Shown here one piece after another: positions 33,202 to 64,000 of a stretch of 64,000 nt of DNA (position 1 is its first letter; every line of letters starts with the position of its first letter). The DNA comes from Geothrix sp. (lineage in GTDB: Bacteria; Acidobacteriota; Holophagae; Holophagales; Holophagaceae), in assembly GCA_030681515.1 (NCBI GenBank), contig JAUXSE010000056.1, forward strand, positions 248,001 through 312,000, given 5' to 3'. A program made the position numbers and the translations under genes. The notes beneath the pieces were generated by a model. It made no database searches. It was not told the DNA's origin and saw nothing but the letters and a program-made list of their open reading frames with translations.

Positions 33202-34773
33202 ATGTACCGCCATCGCACCTCCCGCTACCGCGCCCTGCATCCCGGCACGGGAACCTCCCGCTGGCAGCGGGTCCAGCAGCACAGCGGGATCGTACTGCTG
33301 ATCCTGGCGGGGCTGGCCACCGCCGCCCTGCTCATCGCGGCACCCCGGTTCTACCTGCTGGAGCAGTGGAACATCGGCCGCCAGGCCTACATGGAGGCCC
33401 ACTGGGTGGACTTCGAGGCGGTGGAGCGCCACTGGAAGACCCTGCCCATCCTGCAGACCGTCCAGCGGGGCGACGAGGCCGACGTGCGGCGCTTCCTGGC
33501 GGACCAGCCCCTCGTGGTGGCCCTCCTGGATCGCTTCGAGGGGCGCCATTTCTGGATCCGCGAAGGCGACCGCCTGGTGGAGCCCCGGGATCCGGCCCTG
33601 ATCCAGCAGTACCTGGGCTGGTTCGCCCACGCGGAAATGGCCCAGCGGTTCGAATGGAATCCACCCATGGCGCAGGATCCCGATTTCGGCCAGATCGCCA
33701 CCATCGTGCTCCTGTCCGATCGCTGGCTGGTGATCAAGCGATGGCGCCCCGGCTCGCCGGACGTGGAACGGGAACTCGCGGCGGCCCTGGCGCCGAACCG
33801 GGCCCTGCGCATGGGCCTGATCCGGGAGGCGGACCTGGAGCGGAGCGATCTGAAACGGGAACCCTGGGGCGCCGAGCCCAACCTCCAGGTCGACCCGGCG
33901 CGCCTCACCAGCCTCCCCCTCGGCACGGCGACCAAGACCAATGCGTTCGGCGACGGGTGGAACCTGGCCGGGGTGGGCTTCGACACCCAGCAGGCCACCT
34001 TCCGCACATCCCTCAAGCGCCAGTACTGGACGGCCTCCGGGGTCGCGGCCCTGATCGGTGCCGCCATTCTGCTCGGCCTATGGCTCCGCCACCACAGCCG
34101 GCGCAAGGCGGTGCTGGACGCGGACCGCCTCGCCTCCATGACCCATAGCCTCAAGACCCCCCTCGCCCTCCTCAAGTTCCGCTGCGACTCCCTGCGCCTG
34201 GGCCGCCTCAGCCCGGAGCGCGCGGACGAGGAACTGCTGAAGATCGGTGAGGAAGTGGACCACCTGACCACCATCATCGAAAACGGTCTTCGCGTGATCC
34301 GCGGAGGCGGCCCCTCCGGCCCCCGGGGGCAGGCGACCCGGGCCTGGTTCCAGGAGGTCGCCGAGGACATCCGGCCGGGCTTCGATCTGGAGCACCGCGA
34401 ACTGGAGCTCCGGCTCACTCAGGAAGCCGGACACGCGCCGCTCCCTTCGCTGCGGGCCGCCATTCTCACGCTCGTGGAGAACGCCCTGGGCCACGGCAAA
34501 GGCCGCGTCCGGCTTGAAACCTGGCGGGCCCGGCGCCGGTTCTGCATCCAGGTGAGCGACGAGGGCGAGGGACTCGATGCCCATCAGCTCAAAGTCCTCG
34601 GCAAACCCTTCCAGCGGTTGCGCGAACAGGGCAAAGAAGGCTTCCTGCGGGAAGGCCAGGGCCTCGGCCTGAGTCTGCTCATCCAGGTGGCGGAGCAGGA
34701 AGGCTGGGGCCTCACCTTCTCTTCAGCCCCCGGGGAGGGTTTCTCCGCCCTGCTGGAGGTGCCTGCCGCATGA
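33202..34773 (+). CDS. sensor histidine kinase
   Basis: 523 residues. TM1 about 32-53 and TM2 about 275-292 flank a roughly 220-residue periplasmic sensor domain with no family I recognise. Then a HisKA region with the phosphoacceptor His in SMTHSLKTPLALLKF, and an HATPase domain: N box LVENALGHG, SDEGEG, and GQGLGLSLL. Partner is the OmpR-type regulator 288 bases downstream. The last 23 codons and about 55 bases of flank are repeated 185 bases downstream. Confidence 0.9.
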   Translation: MYRHRTSRYRALHPGTGTSRWQRVQQHSGIVLLILAGLATAALLIAAPRFYLLEQWNIGRQAYMEAHWVDFEAVERHWKTLPILQTVQRGDEADVRRFLADQPLVVALLDRFEGRHFWIREGDRLVEPRDPALIQQYLGWFAHAEMAQRFEWNPPMAQDPDFGQIATIVLLSDRWLVIKRWRPGSPDVERELAAALAPNRALRMGLIREADLERSDLKREPWGAEPNLQVDPARLTSLPLGTATKTNAFGDGWNLAGVGFDTQQATFRTSLKRQYWTASGVAALIGAAILLGLWLRHHSRRKAVLDADRLASMTHSLKTPLALLKFRCDSLRLGRLSPERADEELLKIGEEVDHLTTIIENGLRVIRGGGPSGPRGQATRAWFQEVAEDIRPGFDLEHRELELRLTQEAGHAPLPSLRAAILTLVENALGHGKGRVRLETWRARRRFCIQVSDEGEGLDAHQLKVLGKPFQRLREQGKEGFLREGQGLGLSLLIQVAEQEGWGLTFSSAPGEGFSALLEVPAA

Positions 34774-34825
34774 TCGTCCTGCCCCTTCCCCCGGTGAGGC
34801 CACGCTTCCCACCACCCCCCGATCG
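34702..34825 (+). repeat. direct repeat copy 1 (kinase 3' end plus flank)
   Basis: 124-base unit covering the last 23 codons, the stop and the following flank of the histidine kinase gene. It matches 34887-35010 at 116 of 124 positions with no gaps. Confidence 0.93.
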
Positions 34826-34886
34826 CACGCGGCGCCCGCCGCCTGCTCCCGCTCCTCGCTCCGCTCGATCGCGGAGGGGGCCCCGT

Positions 34887-35010
34887 GGCTGGGGCCTCAC
34901 CTTCTCGTCGGCCCCCGGGGAGGGCTTCTCCGCCCTCCTTGAGGTGCCCGCCGCATGATCGTCCTGCCCCCTGCCCCGGTGAGGCCACGCTTCCCACCAC
35001 CCCCCGATCG
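34887..35010 (+). repeat. direct repeat copy 2, containing a kinase 3' fragment
   Basis: Second copy of the 124-base unit; 34887-34958 still encodes the same 23-residue kinase C-terminus (GWGLTFSSAPGEG ... EVPAA) followed by TGA. All six differences within codons are synonymous. It has no kinase body in front, so it is a gene fragment. Confidence 0.92.
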
Positions 35011-35060
35011 GCTAGGAAATTCGTCGCAGATTTCAATTGTATTTCCCAGTGAAGGCCGCC

Positions 35061-51120: not shown

Positions 51121-52665
51121 ATGCCGACGGCATTGATCTCGGTGTACGACAAGGCGGGGCTCATCCCCCTGGCGGAAGGCCTGCTGGCCCAGGGGTGGCG
51201 GATCCTGGCCACGGGCGGGACCCTGCGCACCCTCCAGGAGGCCCGGCTCGAAGCCCTGGAAGTGGCGGCCTACACGGGCGCCCCGGAGTGCTTCGATGGC
51301 CGCGTGAAAACCCTCCACCCCCGCATCCACGGGGGCCTGCTCTACCGGCGCGATCTGGCCGGCCATGTGGCCGACGCCAAGGCCCAGGGCATCGAGCCCA
51401 TTGATCTGGTGGTGATCAACCTCTACCCCTTCGAGGCCACCATCGCCCGGGAGGGCGCCACCCCCGCGGATGCCATCGAGCAGATTGACATCGGCGGCCC
51501 CAGCATGATCCGCAGCGCCTCGAAGAACCACGCTTCCGTCACGGTGCTGACGGATCCGGCCCAGTACGGCCCCTTCCTCGAAAAGCTCCAGGCCGGCGCC
51601 TGGAGCCTGGAGGACCGCCGCCGCTGCGCCCTGGAGGCCTTCCGCCGGACCGCCGCGTACGATGCTGCCATCTCCGGCTGGATGGAGCGCGAATTCAGCG
51701 GGGGCGACTCTCCGGACCTGCCGCAGCACCTCTGCCTGAACCTAGTCCAGCAGCAGGGGCTCCGCTACGGCGAGAATCCGCATCAGGCCGCGGCTTTCTA
51801 TGTGGAGCCCGGCCGCAAGGTCGAAGGCATGGCCGCCTGCCACCAGCACCAGGGCAAGGAGCTGAGTTTCAACAACCTGCTGGATGCCGATGCCTGCGCC
51901 CGCCTGGTCTGGCAGTTCCCGGCCCCGGCCTGCGTCATCGTCAAGCACAACAACCCCTGCGGCGTGGGCCAGGGACCGCACGCGCTGGAGGCCTTCATGC
52001 GCGCCCAGGCCGGCGATCCGGTCAGCGCCTTCGGCGGCATCGTGGCCTTCAACCGGACCGTGGGCGTCGAGGTGGCCCGCGTCATGGCCCAGAACTTCTG
52101 GGAGGTCATCCTGGCCCCCGCCTTCACGGGCGAGGCCCTGGAAGTGTTCGCCGCCAAGAAGCAGCTGCGCATCCTCCAGACGCCGGATCACTGGCCCCAG
52201 AGCGCCGAAGGCCTGGATACCCGTTCCATCGGCGGCGGCTACCTGGTGCAGCGCGCGGACGACGCCTTCGTGCCCTTCGAGGCCTGGGAAGTGAAGGCCA
52301 GCGGCCCCGGTGCCAAGCCCCGCACCGAGGATCTCGTGCTGGCCCAGCGGGTGGCCAAGGCCGTGAAGTCCAATGCCATCGTGCTGGTGAAGGAGGGCGC
52401 CACGGTGGGCATCGGCGCGGGCCAGATGAGCCGGGTGGATTCCGTGGAGATCGCCTGCCGCAAGGCGGGGGACCGGGCCCGCGGCGCCGTGCTGGGCAGC
52501 GACGCCTTCTTTCCCTTCGCGGATGGCCTCGAGCTGGCCGCGGGCCATGGCGTGTCGGCCTTCGTCGAACCGGGCGGCAGCCTCCGGGACAACGAAGTCA
52601 TCGCCGCCGCCCAGAAGCTGGGTGTATGGCTCTTCTTCACGGGCATGCGGCATTTCCGTCATTGA
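51121..52665 (+). CDS. purH: bifunctional AICAR formyltransferase / IMP cyclohydrolase
   Basis: 514 residues. Last two steps of IMP synthesis. N-terminal MGS-like cyclohydrolase (ALISVYDKAGLIPLAEGL, FDGRVKTLHPRIHGGLL, INLYPFE, IDIGGPSMIRSASKNH), C-terminal transformylase (LRYGENPHQAAAFY, KHNNPCG, SDAFFPFADGLE). Start ATG 51121 with GGGGGAG upstream; the frame is open further upstream but without family residues. Divergent from the 112-residue gene. Confidence 0.97.
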   Translation: MPTALISVYDKAGLIPLAEGLLAQGWRILATGGTLRTLQEARLEALEVAAYTGAPECFDGRVKTLHPRIHGGLLYRRDLAGHVADAKAQGIEPIDLVVINLYPFEATIAREGATPADAIEQIDIGGPSMIRSASKNHASVTVLTDPAQYGPFLEKLQAGAWSLEDRRRCALEAFRRTAAYDAAISGWMEREFSGGDSPDLPQHLCLNLVQQQGLRYGENPHQAAAFYVEPGRKVEGMAACHQHQGKELSFNNLLDADACARLVWQFPAPACVIVKHNNPCGVGQGPHALEAFMRAQAGDPVSAFGGIVAFNRTVGVEVARVMAQNFWEVILAPAFTGEALEVFAAKKQLRILQTPDHWPQSAEGLDTRSIGGGYLVQRADDAFVPFEAWEVKASGPGAKPRTEDLVLAQRVAKAVKSNAIVLVKEGATVGIGAGQMSRVDSVEIACRKAGDRARGAVLGSDAFFPFADGLELAAGHGVSAFVEPGGSLRDNEVIAAAQKLGVWLFFTGMRHFRH

Positions 52666-52671
52666 GCACAG

Positions 52672-52700
52672 CTCCAAAACGGGCTTTGCCTGTTTTGGAG
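52672..52700 (+). terminator. hairpin after purH, twin of the fusA terminator
   Basis: 13-bp arms CTCCAAAACGGGC / GCCTGTTTTGGAG (one G-T pair), TTT loop, 7 bases past the purH stop, followed by ATAGG. Same sequence family as the hairpin at 24847-24877. Confidence 0.75.
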
Positions 52701-52735
52701 ATAGGCAACGACCTCCATCTCAGTCTGGATCCTTC

Positions 52736-55381
52736 ATGAAAACTTCCGAACTCCGCCAGCGATTCCTTCAGTACTTCGAACGCCAGGGGCACCGCCGGGT
52801 GGCCTCCAGCGCGGTGATCGGCCCCGCCGACGACCCCACGGTGATGTGGACGAATTCCGGCATGATCCAGTTCAAGGACGTGTTCCTGGGCAAGGAGAAC
52901 CGCGACTACCGCCGCGCCACCAGCAGCCAGAAGTGCCTGCGGGCCGGCGGCAAGCACAACGATCTCGATCAGGTGGGGTTCACGGCCCGCCACCACACCT
53001 TCTTCGAGATGCTCGGCAACTTCAGCTTCGGCGACTACTTCAAGGCCGATGCCATCCGCTTCGCCTGGGACTTCGCCACGGGATCCATCGAGAACGGGTG
53101 TCTCGGCCTGGATCCTGCCCGTCTATGGATCACGGTCTTCGAGGGGGCCGATGGCCTGCCCGCGGATACCGAGGCCGAAGAACTGTGGAAGGCCGCCGGC
53201 GCGGCTCCGGAGCGCATCCTCCGCTTCGGCAAGAAGGACAACTTCTGGCAGATGGGCGATACCGGCCCCTGTGGGCCCTGCTCGGAGATGCACTACGATC
53301 GCGGCGAGCGCATTCCCGGCGATGCCCTGCCCAACGGCGACGGCGACCGCAACATGGAGATCTGGAACCTGGTCTTCATGCAGTACGAACGGGACGGAAA
53401 CGGCGTCCTGACCCCCCTGCCCAGGCCCAGCATTGATACGGGCATGGGCCTGGAACGCACGGCCAGCATCCTCCAGGGCGTGGACAGCAACTATGAGATA
53501 GATCTGTTCGCGCCGATCTTCGAGGCCATCTGGCGGGCGGCGAAGGTGAATCCCGAGGACCGGCGGGAGCACGCGAACCGCACCGCCTCCCAGGTCATCG
53601 CCGATCACATCCGGGCCGCCACCTTCATGTGCTTCGACGGCGTGGGGCCCAGCAACGAGGGCCGAGGCTACGTGCTGCGCAAGATCATCCGCCGGGCCCT
53701 GCGCTTCGGCCGGAAGCTGGGCATCGAAGGCCTCTTCTTCGCGGATCTGGCCCCGGCGGTCTTCCAGGCCATGGGTGATCAGTACCCCGAACTGCTGGGC
53801 GAGCTGGGCCGCATCCAGAAGTCCCTGCAGCGGGAGGAACAGCAGTTCAGCCATACCTTGTCCGCGGGTTTGAAACTCCTCGAAACCAGCGACGTTTCGA
53901 CGGGCACCCTGACGGGCTCCGATATCTTCCGGCTCTATGACACCTACGGATTCCCCGTGGACCTGGTGGAAGACTGGTGCCGGGAACGGGGCATCGCGGC
54001 GGATCTGGCCGGCTTCCAGCAGGAATTGAGTGCCCAGCGCACCCGGGCCCGGGCGGCCATGAAGACCCACGATCTGCGGCTCGCGGGGGATCTGGCCATC
54101 CTGGCGGACTTCCCTCCCACCCGGTTCACCGGCTACGACCAGCTCGAATGCCAGGCCCATGTGGTGGCGCTCTTCGACGCAGGGAACCGCCGGGTGAAGC
54201 GGCTCACGGGCGAAGGCTACGTGCTGCTGGATCGCACCCCCTTCTACGCCCAGTCCGGCGGCCAGGTGGGGGATACCGGCCAGCTGCGCTTCGAAGGCGG
54301 CCACGCCGATGTTCTCGACTGCGTCGCCCCGGCCCAGAGGCGCCACGTCCACAAGGTCATGGTCCAGGGCACCCTCATGGAAAACACCGCCGTGAACGCC
54401 CTGGTGCACCCCATCCGGCGCCGCCGGGTCCGCGCCCATCATACGGCCACGCACCTGCTGCACGCGGCCCTGCGCGAGGTGCTGGGCACCCATGTGAAGC
54501 AGGCCGGCAGCGTGGTGGACGCCGCGCGCCTGCGTTTCGACTTCACGCATTTCGCGCCCCTCGAACCCGGACAGATCGCCGAGATCGAACGCCTCGCCTC
54601 GCGCCAGGCCCTGAAGTCCGTGGACACCCGGGTGAACGAGATGGACATCGAGGAGGCGCTGGCCTCCGGTGCCATGGCCCTCTTCGGCGAGAAGTACGGC
54701 GATGTGGTGCGCGTGGTCCAGATCCCCGGATTCTCCACGGAGCTTTGCGGCGGAACCCACGTCCCCAACACCGGCGAGATCGGCGTGGTGAAAATCATCT
54801 CCGAAGGCGCGGTCAGCGCTGGCGTCCGCCGCATCGAGGCGGTGGCGGGCGAAATGGCCCTGGAGCTCCTCCAGGCCGATGAGGCCATGATCCAGGGGCT
54901 CTCCCGCCAGGCCAACACCGGGCGGGAGGCGCTACCGGACCTGCTGCTGGCCAAGGATCAACGCATCGCCCAGCTCGAACGCGATCTGAAGGACGCCAAG
55001 CTCAAGGCCGCCAGCGGCGGCGGAAGCGCCGATCTCACGTTGGGAAATGAGCGGAAAGTCAATGATACGTTCCTCCGCTATTACCGGATCGAAGGCCTCG
55101 CGGGTTCTGACTTGCGGGAATTGATGGATCAGAAAAGAACGTCGCTCCAGGACGAATTGATCTTCCTGTATTCAGTCCTTGCACCCGATCAGGTCGCTGC
55201 GGTGATCTCGGTTCCAAGACATCGGACCTCGGAATTCGACGCAAACAAGCTCATGAAGGCCATCCTCCCCCTCCTGGATGGCCGGGGCGGCGGGAAATCC
55301 GATCTCGCCCAGGGTGGCGGAAAACGGACAGACAACTTCGATGAGGTTTGGGAAACCTTGTGCAAAGCTGCCGGGGCCTGA
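52736..55381 (+). CDS. alaS: alanyl-tRNA synthetase with atypical C-terminus
   Basis: 881 residues. Class II catalytic core (VMWTNSGMIQFKDVFLGKEN, SQKCLRAGGKHNDLDQVG), tRNA-recognition domain, editing domain with HHTATHLLHAAL and CGGTHVPNTG, then the DHHA1-type tail. From about 55040 the codon use turns markedly A/T-richer and the sequence departs from its neighbours, while still encoding a plausible tail (LPLLDGRGGGKSDLAQGGG). A native-looking second tail fragment lies downstream, so the 3' end seems to have been replaced. Confidence 0.95.
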   Translation: MKTSELRQRFLQYFERQGHRRVASSAVIGPADDPTVMWTNSGMIQFKDVFLGKENRDYRRATSSQKCLRAGGKHNDLDQVGFTARHHTFFEMLGNFSFGDYFKADAIRFAWDFATGSIENGCLGLDPARLWITVFEGADGLPADTEAEELWKAAGAAPERILRFGKKDNFWQMGDTGPCGPCSEMHYDRGERIPGDALPNGDGDRNMEIWNLVFMQYERDGNGVLTPLPRPSIDTGMGLERTASILQGVDSNYEIDLFAPIFEAIWRAAKVNPEDRREHANRTASQVIADHIRAATFMCFDGVGPSNEGRGYVLRKIIRRALRFGRKLGIEGLFFADLAPAVFQAMGDQYPELLGELGRIQKSLQREEQQFSHTLSAGLKLLETSDVSTGTLTGSDIFRLYDTYGFPVDLVEDWCRERGIAADLAGFQQELSAQRTRARAAMKTHDLRLAGDLAILADFPPTRFTGYDQLECQAHVVALFDAGNRRVKRLTGEGYVLLDRTPFYAQSGGQVGDTGQLRFEGGHADVLDCVAPAQRRHVHKVMVQGTLMENTAVNALVHPIRRRRVRAHHTATHLLHAALREVLGTHVKQAGSVVDAARLRFDFTHFAPLEPGQIAEIERLASRQALKSVDTRVNEMDIEEALASGAMALFGEKYGDVVRVVQIPGFSTELCGGTHVPNTGEIGVVKIISEGAVSAGVRRIEAVAGEMALELLQADEAMIQGLSRQANTGREALPDLLLAKDQRIAQLERDLKDAKLKAASGGGSADLTLGNERKVNDTFLRYYRIEGLAGSDLRELMDQKRTSLQDELIFLYSVLAPDQVAAVISVPRHRTSEFDANKLMKAILPLLDGRGGGKSDLAQGGGKRTDNFDEVWETLCKAAGA

Positions 55382-55396
55382 ATGACTCCACCTATC

Positions 55397-55462
55397 GCAC
55401 AGGACATCGAGTCCTGTGCTCCTGAGTTACAGCCAAGCTGTAACTCAGAGGCGGAGCCTCTG
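55397..55462. repeat. three consecutive perfect hairpins after alaS
   Basis: Hairpin 1: GCACAGGAC-ATCGA-GTCCTGTGC (55397-55419). Hairpin 2: CTGAGTTACAGC-CAA-GCTGTAACTCAG (55422-55448). Hairpin 3: CAGAGGC-GGA-GCCTCTG (55446-55462), sharing 3 bases with hairpin 2. The cluster lies between the alaS stop and the displaced alaS fragment; it may terminate alaS or mark a rearrangement site. Confidence 0.85.
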
Positions 55463-55475
55463 GACCCGGCATCGA

Positions 55476-55694
55476 AGCGCCGTCATCGTGCTGGCTTCCA
55501 AGGTCGCCGAGGACAAGGTGGCGGCCCTGGTCTCCGTCTCTCCGGACCTCCCCTGCGACGCGGGCGCCCTCTTCAAGGCCATGCTCCCCGCCCTGAACGG
55601 CCGCGGCGGCGGCAAGAAGGATCTGGCCCAGGGCGGCGGCACCAACCCCGCCGGCCTGCCCGGGGCCTTCGCCGCGCTCCGCGCGGCCCTGTGA
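55476..55694 (+). pseudogene. displaced 3' fragment of alaS
   Basis: Encodes about 72 residues (AVIVLASKVAEDKVAALVSV ... LNGRGGGKKDLAQGGG ... AALRAAL) that match the C-terminal DHHA1 domain of alanyl-tRNA synthetase, in native G/C-rich codons, ending TGA at 55694. There is no start codon at the domain edge and no upstream body, so it reads as the original alaS end left behind. Confidence 0.8.
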
Positions 55695-55709
55695 TTCACT
55701 CCCAGCGGC

Positions 55710-63813: not shown

Positions 63814-63832
63814 GCGACCGCCGGGTGGCGCA

Positions 63833-63855
63833 GTGGAGGACTTGATGTCCTCCAC
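63833..63855 (+). terminator. hairpin after the response regulator
   Basis: 9-bp perfect arms GTGGAGGAC / GTCCTCCAC, loop TTGAT. Its core (AGGACATCAAGTCCT on the other strand) matches the first hairpin after alaS at 55397 except for one loop base. Confidence 0.6.
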
Positions 63856-63865
63856 GAAGCCGGGA

Positions 63866-63926
63866 CCCGGCGAGGAGCTTATGCCACGCGACCGCCAGGT
63901 CCCGGCTAGGAGCTTATGCCACGCGA
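63866..63926. repeat. 26-base direct repeat, two copies
   Basis: Units at 63866-63891 and 63901-63926, each CCCGGC(G/T)AGGAGCTTATG then CCACGCGA, one mismatch, 9-base spacer. No gene covers them; meaning unknown. Confidence 0.85.
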
Positions 63927-63934
63927 TCAGAAGA

Positions 63935-64000
63935 TCAGGCCTCCAGCACGCCCTGTATCTTGGCCAGCAGCTCGCGGGGCCCGTACGGCTTCTGGATGAA
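63935..64000 (-). CDS. receiver-domain protein, C-terminal end only
   Basis: The last 21 codons of a minus-strand gene run off the window edge and encode FIQKPYGPRELLAKIQGVLE plus Ala and TGA. The K-P-Y/F motif followed by the final helix is the end of a CheY-like receiver domain, so the gene is a response regulator or a hybrid kinase ending in a receiver. Confidence 0.7.
   Translation of the reverse strand, partial: FIQKPYGPRELLAKIQGVLEA

Follow-up and report, generated by a model that had tools for sequence, protein, structure and literature searches.

The alaS gene of this Geothrix genome is followed by a second copy of its own 3' end, which raises the question of which end is the original and how the other came to take its place. 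Within the window (the whole 64,000-nucleotide stretch analysed here), alaS occupies a plus-strand reading frame of 881 amino acids (52736-55381) with the Pfam domains tRNA-synt_2c, tRNA_SAD and DHHA1, and encodes a full-length class II alanyl-tRNA synthetase (AlaRS). It appears to be the sole AlaRS of the genome, since the remaining DHHA1 matches, on other contigs, lie in frames (337 and 592 codons) too short for this enzyme. The features discussed below are collected in Table 1. The purH-alaS intergenic region (52665-52735) carries a separate hairpin, CTCCAAAACGGGCTTTGCCTGTTTTGGAG.

Table 1. Features of the alaS locus and of a second duplicated gene end in the window.
Feature	Position	Strand	Basis
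Histidine-kinase-type gene, 3' end (about 34703-34773) duplicated	33202..34773	+	Direct-repeat analysis (L291)
Palindromic unit, same family as the alaS spacer, right end GGAGGGGGCCCCGT	34809..34886	+	R1, E 6e-9
Displaced kinase 3' end including stop	34887..34958	+	Direct repeat
alaS, native part (catalytic, SAD and coiled-coil regions)	52736..55030	+	Congener DNA identity, GC3 ~0.88
Foreign functional alaS 3' end (DHHA1 tail), stop 55379-55381	55031..55381	+	Identity to G039, GC3, dN/dS
Palindromic unit, subfamily CCTATCGCAC, right end near 55461	55383..55461	+	Covariance model R1, unit alignment
Displaced native alaS 3' end, 5' side truncated, original stop 55692-55694	55462..55694	+	DHHA1 match, G013 identity

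An earlier note, made from the window alone, had claimed that alaS shifts to A/T-richer codons towards its end, and codon usage along the gene agrees. The GC3 of the final 112 codons is 0.66, versus ~0.88 for the body, in which every 112-codon window examined has a GC3 of at least 0.83. The switch is real; its position is ~55031 rather than 55040 as previously placed, and from there the last ~117 codons form a diverged, A/T-richer DHHA1 tail. DNA identity of the alaS body to congeners is mostly 75-95%. In native-tailed congeners GC3 drops from body to tail by at most 0.08, and the sole other strong dropper is G039 (CAIQPH01, uncultured Holophagaceae bacterium VK_bin-2000), in which GC3 falls from 0.87 to 0.55 (a drop of 0.31). 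The window tail shares about 78-79% amino acid identity with the G039 tail, versus about 50-52% with native congener tails.

The sequence downstream of the stop retains native codons, in a frame that is open up to the original stop. A second, native-codon copy of the same domain end had been proposed here, and its DHHA1 match and near-identity to the G013 tail bear this out, except that it starts at ~55462, ~80 bases past the alaS stop, and not at 55476 or 95 bases past it. Both the alaS tail (41.7 bits) and the downstream fragment (35.6 bits) exceed the cut-off of the DHHA1 profile, and the two share 75% identity over 84 nt (55237-55320 vs 55556-55639). The displaced tail is 88.5% identical in DNA to the native tail of G013, from which its protein differs at 2 of 74 residues, and its dN to the nearest natives is 0.02-0.05. 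G039 also retains a displaced native end, of 35 codons, the native tail being truncated at different points in the two genomes. In both, the displaced tails differ from functional natives mainly at silent sites and are free of premature stops. It is unlikely that the displaced tail is an active small protein, because the G039 copy is reduced to a small part of its length and lacks a start. Some silent-site features (GATCTCGCCCAGGGTGG) of the G039 displaced tail (L006 1949-2066) also occur in the foreign tails, which would fit partial recombination with one of them.

Among the 43 congeneric genomes (one genus of Holophagaceae) with an alaS tail, 41 carry the native form, and G039 is the only congener with a swapped tail and a displaced end. 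From four further assemblies (G031, G007, G024 and G025) alaS was not recovered, and these are uninformative on any element. The earlier note had allowed for the tail being common to relatives, with a fragment behind it that has no homology to AlaS; with 41 native-tailed congeners this is not the case. Its central claim, that foreign sequence has taken the place of the alaS 3' end, with the old end left downstream, holds in two separate lineages. In the tree of alaS bodies G039 is sister to native-tailed G034 (100/99), and the window genome lies elsewhere, its exact place being poorly resolved. Since G039 is not sister to the window genome and the displaced tails are undecayed, the swap occurred twice, or possibly once with later transfer between species by homologous recombination. 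Identity windows just upstream of the tail revealed no clear tract of interspecies homologous recombination. Displacement was recent in each lineage, long after the species split, because the displaced tails have low dN and an open frame even though the alaS bodies differ at a dS of 0.67; a fragment that had evolved neutrally since the split would be wrecked. Misassembly was rejected, since the layout recurs in a second, independent genome and lies within long contigs.

The foreign tail is under purifying selection: between the window genome and G039, dN/dS is 0.106 for the tails and 0.107 for the bodies. Tail dS (1.09) exceeds that of the body, as expected if the foreign tails had diverged before their arrival. 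Searches of phages, plasmids and viral contigs returned no close match to the tail, only AlaRS-like ones at 25-40% identity and one spurious match inside an integrase (IMG/VR), and an origin from a phage, plasmid or virus was rejected on this basis. Likewise, no close match except G039 was found in a sample of 396 genomes of the phylum and 77 of the family, and we rejected the view that the tail is native to another lineage of Acidobacteriota. The two foreign tails cluster in the tail phylogeny, and their place among Holophagaceae is unsettled because of a very long branch.

The two ends are separated by ~80 bp in the window genome, and by less in G039. Both foreign tails end in TGA, followed after a few bases by CTCCACCTATyGCACAGGACATykAGTCCTGTGCTCCTGAG, and the palindromes of the two spacers are 93% identical over 43 bp. 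In the window the main hairpin spans 55397-55419, with further palindromes at 55422-55448 and 55447-55461. A covariance model (R1), built on the hairpin of 27 units, none of them from alaS, matched the window spacer at 55383-55424 (E 5e-4; second in rank in the 64-kb window) and the G039 spacer (E 0.005), and gave zero matches at 27 native alaS loci. Unit and foreign tail thus occur together in 2 of 2 cases, and neither occurs alone among the 27 native loci. The alaS unit resembles the family mainly through its left hairpin, the part matched by R1; its right end (AGGCGGAG before 55461) resembles that of a related unit beside gpmI in G041, and the right half is absent from the G039 unit.

A second example lies in the same window, where R1 has its top match (34809-34857). 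The histidine-kinase-type gene upstream terminates in GWGLTFSSAPGEGFSALLEVPAA, and the same end is found again on the far side of the unit, starting directly at its right end (+0). This repeat extends as far as ~35008 and overlaps what may be a second, truncated unit (34994-35025, E 0.2).

Across the genus, the unit (~88 bp) is dispersed, with a few intergenic copies per genome; a DNA search with one unit returned 1-9 matches in 34 of 47 congeneric genomes, and a pattern search placed alaS-type palindromes beside other genes, with the gene end again duplicated on the far side. Host direct repeats flank 51 of the 52 units examined. In 47 of the 52 the displaced (right) copy begins no more than 6 bp from the unit's right end, which is typically GGAGGGGGCCCCGT. 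At these 47 loci, which are not all independent (about 14 distinct sites, several common to more than one species), the repeats are 28-218 bp long (median 69) with a median identity of 95%, and by a simple ORF rule the left copy at every locus (47/47) contains or adjoins a possible start or stop of a gene. When control sites after the stop codons of long ORFs were examined, 9/83 had any repeat and 2/83 a strong one (E<1e-6), as compared to 23/40 and 18/40, respectively, for palindromes tested the same way. A second unit lies downstream at only 4/47 loci, and the view that the direct repeats are mere tandem arrays of units was therefore rejected.

An ABC-ATPase gene, duplicated in this manner in 8 of 42 genomes, shows which copy is added. 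The right copy always begins at the same codon of the gene, and in three unit-free genomes (G000, which is the window genome, G013 and G019) the sequence after the stop resembles that following the right copy. Since the flank of the right copy resembles the unit-free state, it is the right copy that represents the original end in its native context, whereas the unit and the left copy have been added, matching the layout at alaS. At loci other than alaS the two copies tend to resemble each other more than the copies of other species.

Compensatory changes preserve the hairpin: in the R1 alignment 99.2% of cells are paired, 7 of 9 pairs show such changes, and G-U occurs in 2 of 243 cells. The scarcity of G-U pairs suggests that the palindrome matters as DNA and not as RNA; an Rfam scan of the window matched no known RNA family. 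In being short, non-coding, intergenic and palindromic, with a hairpin kept by compensatory changes, the units are like REP/REPIN and MITE-like repeats. They differ from these in the duplicated host gene ends of 28-218 bp that flank them and in their precise right boundary; the duplications of MITEs are of 2-15 bp, and the inverted ends of the present units are only partial. A RAYT/Y1 transposase (PF01797) had no match in G000, G041, G001, G034 or G013 and one in G039, and mobilisation of the unit as a REP by a Y1 transposase was rejected, the window genome having no such gene. We found no published description of such units in a literature that was covered in part. The palindromic unit with its long host duplications looks new, and gene-end replacement itself is a known outcome.

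How the foreign end arrived can be weighed against these observations. We give about even chances to the reading that it recombined into the chromosomal alaS together with the palindromic unit, as one segment, pushing the native end downstream. The incoming segment would have comprised a diverged alaS 3' end, its stop, a few bases and the unit. The left junction lies in a conserved linker, where the join would have formed within homologous Gly/Ser-rich codons (~55020-55031), probably by homologous recombination; the right junction coincides with the unit's right end. The incoming end would then have become the functional C-terminus of AlaRS and the native end a non-functional fragment. That the segment carried a foreign alaS end linked to the unit is argued by the left, functional copy being foreign and the right copy native; we infer that both arrived in a single step by this route, the donor being perhaps a relative of lower GC that has not been sampled, or else an element with a tail of this kind. 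Neither a donor nor an intact cassette was found in the genomes and the phage, plasmid and viral collections searched. Ordinary units fit an insertion at a gene end that duplicates a long stretch of host DNA and leaves the left copy as the functional one. Against a single segment stands the near-identity of the copies at loci other than alaS (median 95%), which fits local duplication, so that alaS needs an extra step; the resemblance of the alaS unit to its family mainly in the left hairpin also counts against it. Such a duplication followed by allelic exchange, in which unit insertion first yields two native tails and the functional copy is later exchanged with a divergent alaS, would have a first step seen exactly at other loci, with duplications of up to 218 bp; we nevertheless regard this sequence of events as very improbable, given that unit and foreign tail are found together in both cases and that the two genomes agree in the sequence of the unit and in its spacing from the stop.

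The earlier note had instead seen the scar of an inserted element that was later lost, and the final layout does equal that of the e14 prophage in Escherichia coli icd, which supplies a new 3' end and displaces a 163-bp icd fragment (PMC6379469). As in icd, the alaS body was given a new, diverged, in-frame 3' end and the old end was displaced downstream. Site-specific integration of a large element that brought along an alaS 3' end, followed by its deletion down to a short scar, would suit both the A/T-rich codons and a left boundary that is identical in two lineages. However, no cargo lies between the tails in either genome, where e14/icd has an integrase-bearing element, and the tail itself is absent from the phages, plasmids and viral contigs searched. 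Both scars keep the same small unit, whose dispersed palindromic family also stands between duplicated gene ends elsewhere. The two alaS junctions have no att core in common, and the displaced tail begins tens of codons beyond the left one; such a core may have been lost in a later deletion. We consider a lost e14-like element unlikely. Nor is it very likely that homology-facilitated illegitimate recombination with a donor chromosome, through a chance join past the donor stop, produced the locus, the unit being incidental or its hairpin having favoured breakage. This route has been proposed for displaced old ends elsewhere, such as the orphan immunity genes behind swapped T6SS effectors of Vibrio cholerae (PMC5361080), and the differing truncation points of the native tail speak for it. 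Orphan immunity genes and orphan 3' regions (T6SS, Rhs) share with alaS a probably homologous left join, a new 3' end and a displaced old one, but alaS encodes a housekeeping synthetase and its right join falls at a specific palindromic unit, coinciding with the unit's right end in the window as at other unit loci. Moreover, a homologous join was free to form anywhere across the 2.3-kb body, but the linker is the site in both genomes.

An essential tRNA synthetase has thus gained a foreign C-terminal domain while the old one is still visible, in two lineages, making this a roughly datable domain replacement. The strict succession of a gene end, the unit and then the displaced copy points to an undescribed insertion mechanism. 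More tentatively, and with considerable doubt, the units may be mobile DNA of a novel type: they would insert at the ends of genes, sharply bounded on the right, duplicate 30-220 bp of host sequence as they do so, and be able to ferry gene ends from one species to another, creating chimeric housekeeping genes such as alaS. If so, the long duplication would ensure that an intact gene end is never lost.

Related palindromes (GACATYNAGTC) adjoin tRNA genes (Met, Arg, Thr and Pro) and copies of tRNA 3' ends, sometimes in tandem (L119 1400-1870 on contig C21 of the window genome, L171, L174, L179 and L190). A palindrome of the GACATCAAGTC type, of a different subfamily, lies in a repeat-like intergenic stretch at 63820-63940 of the window.
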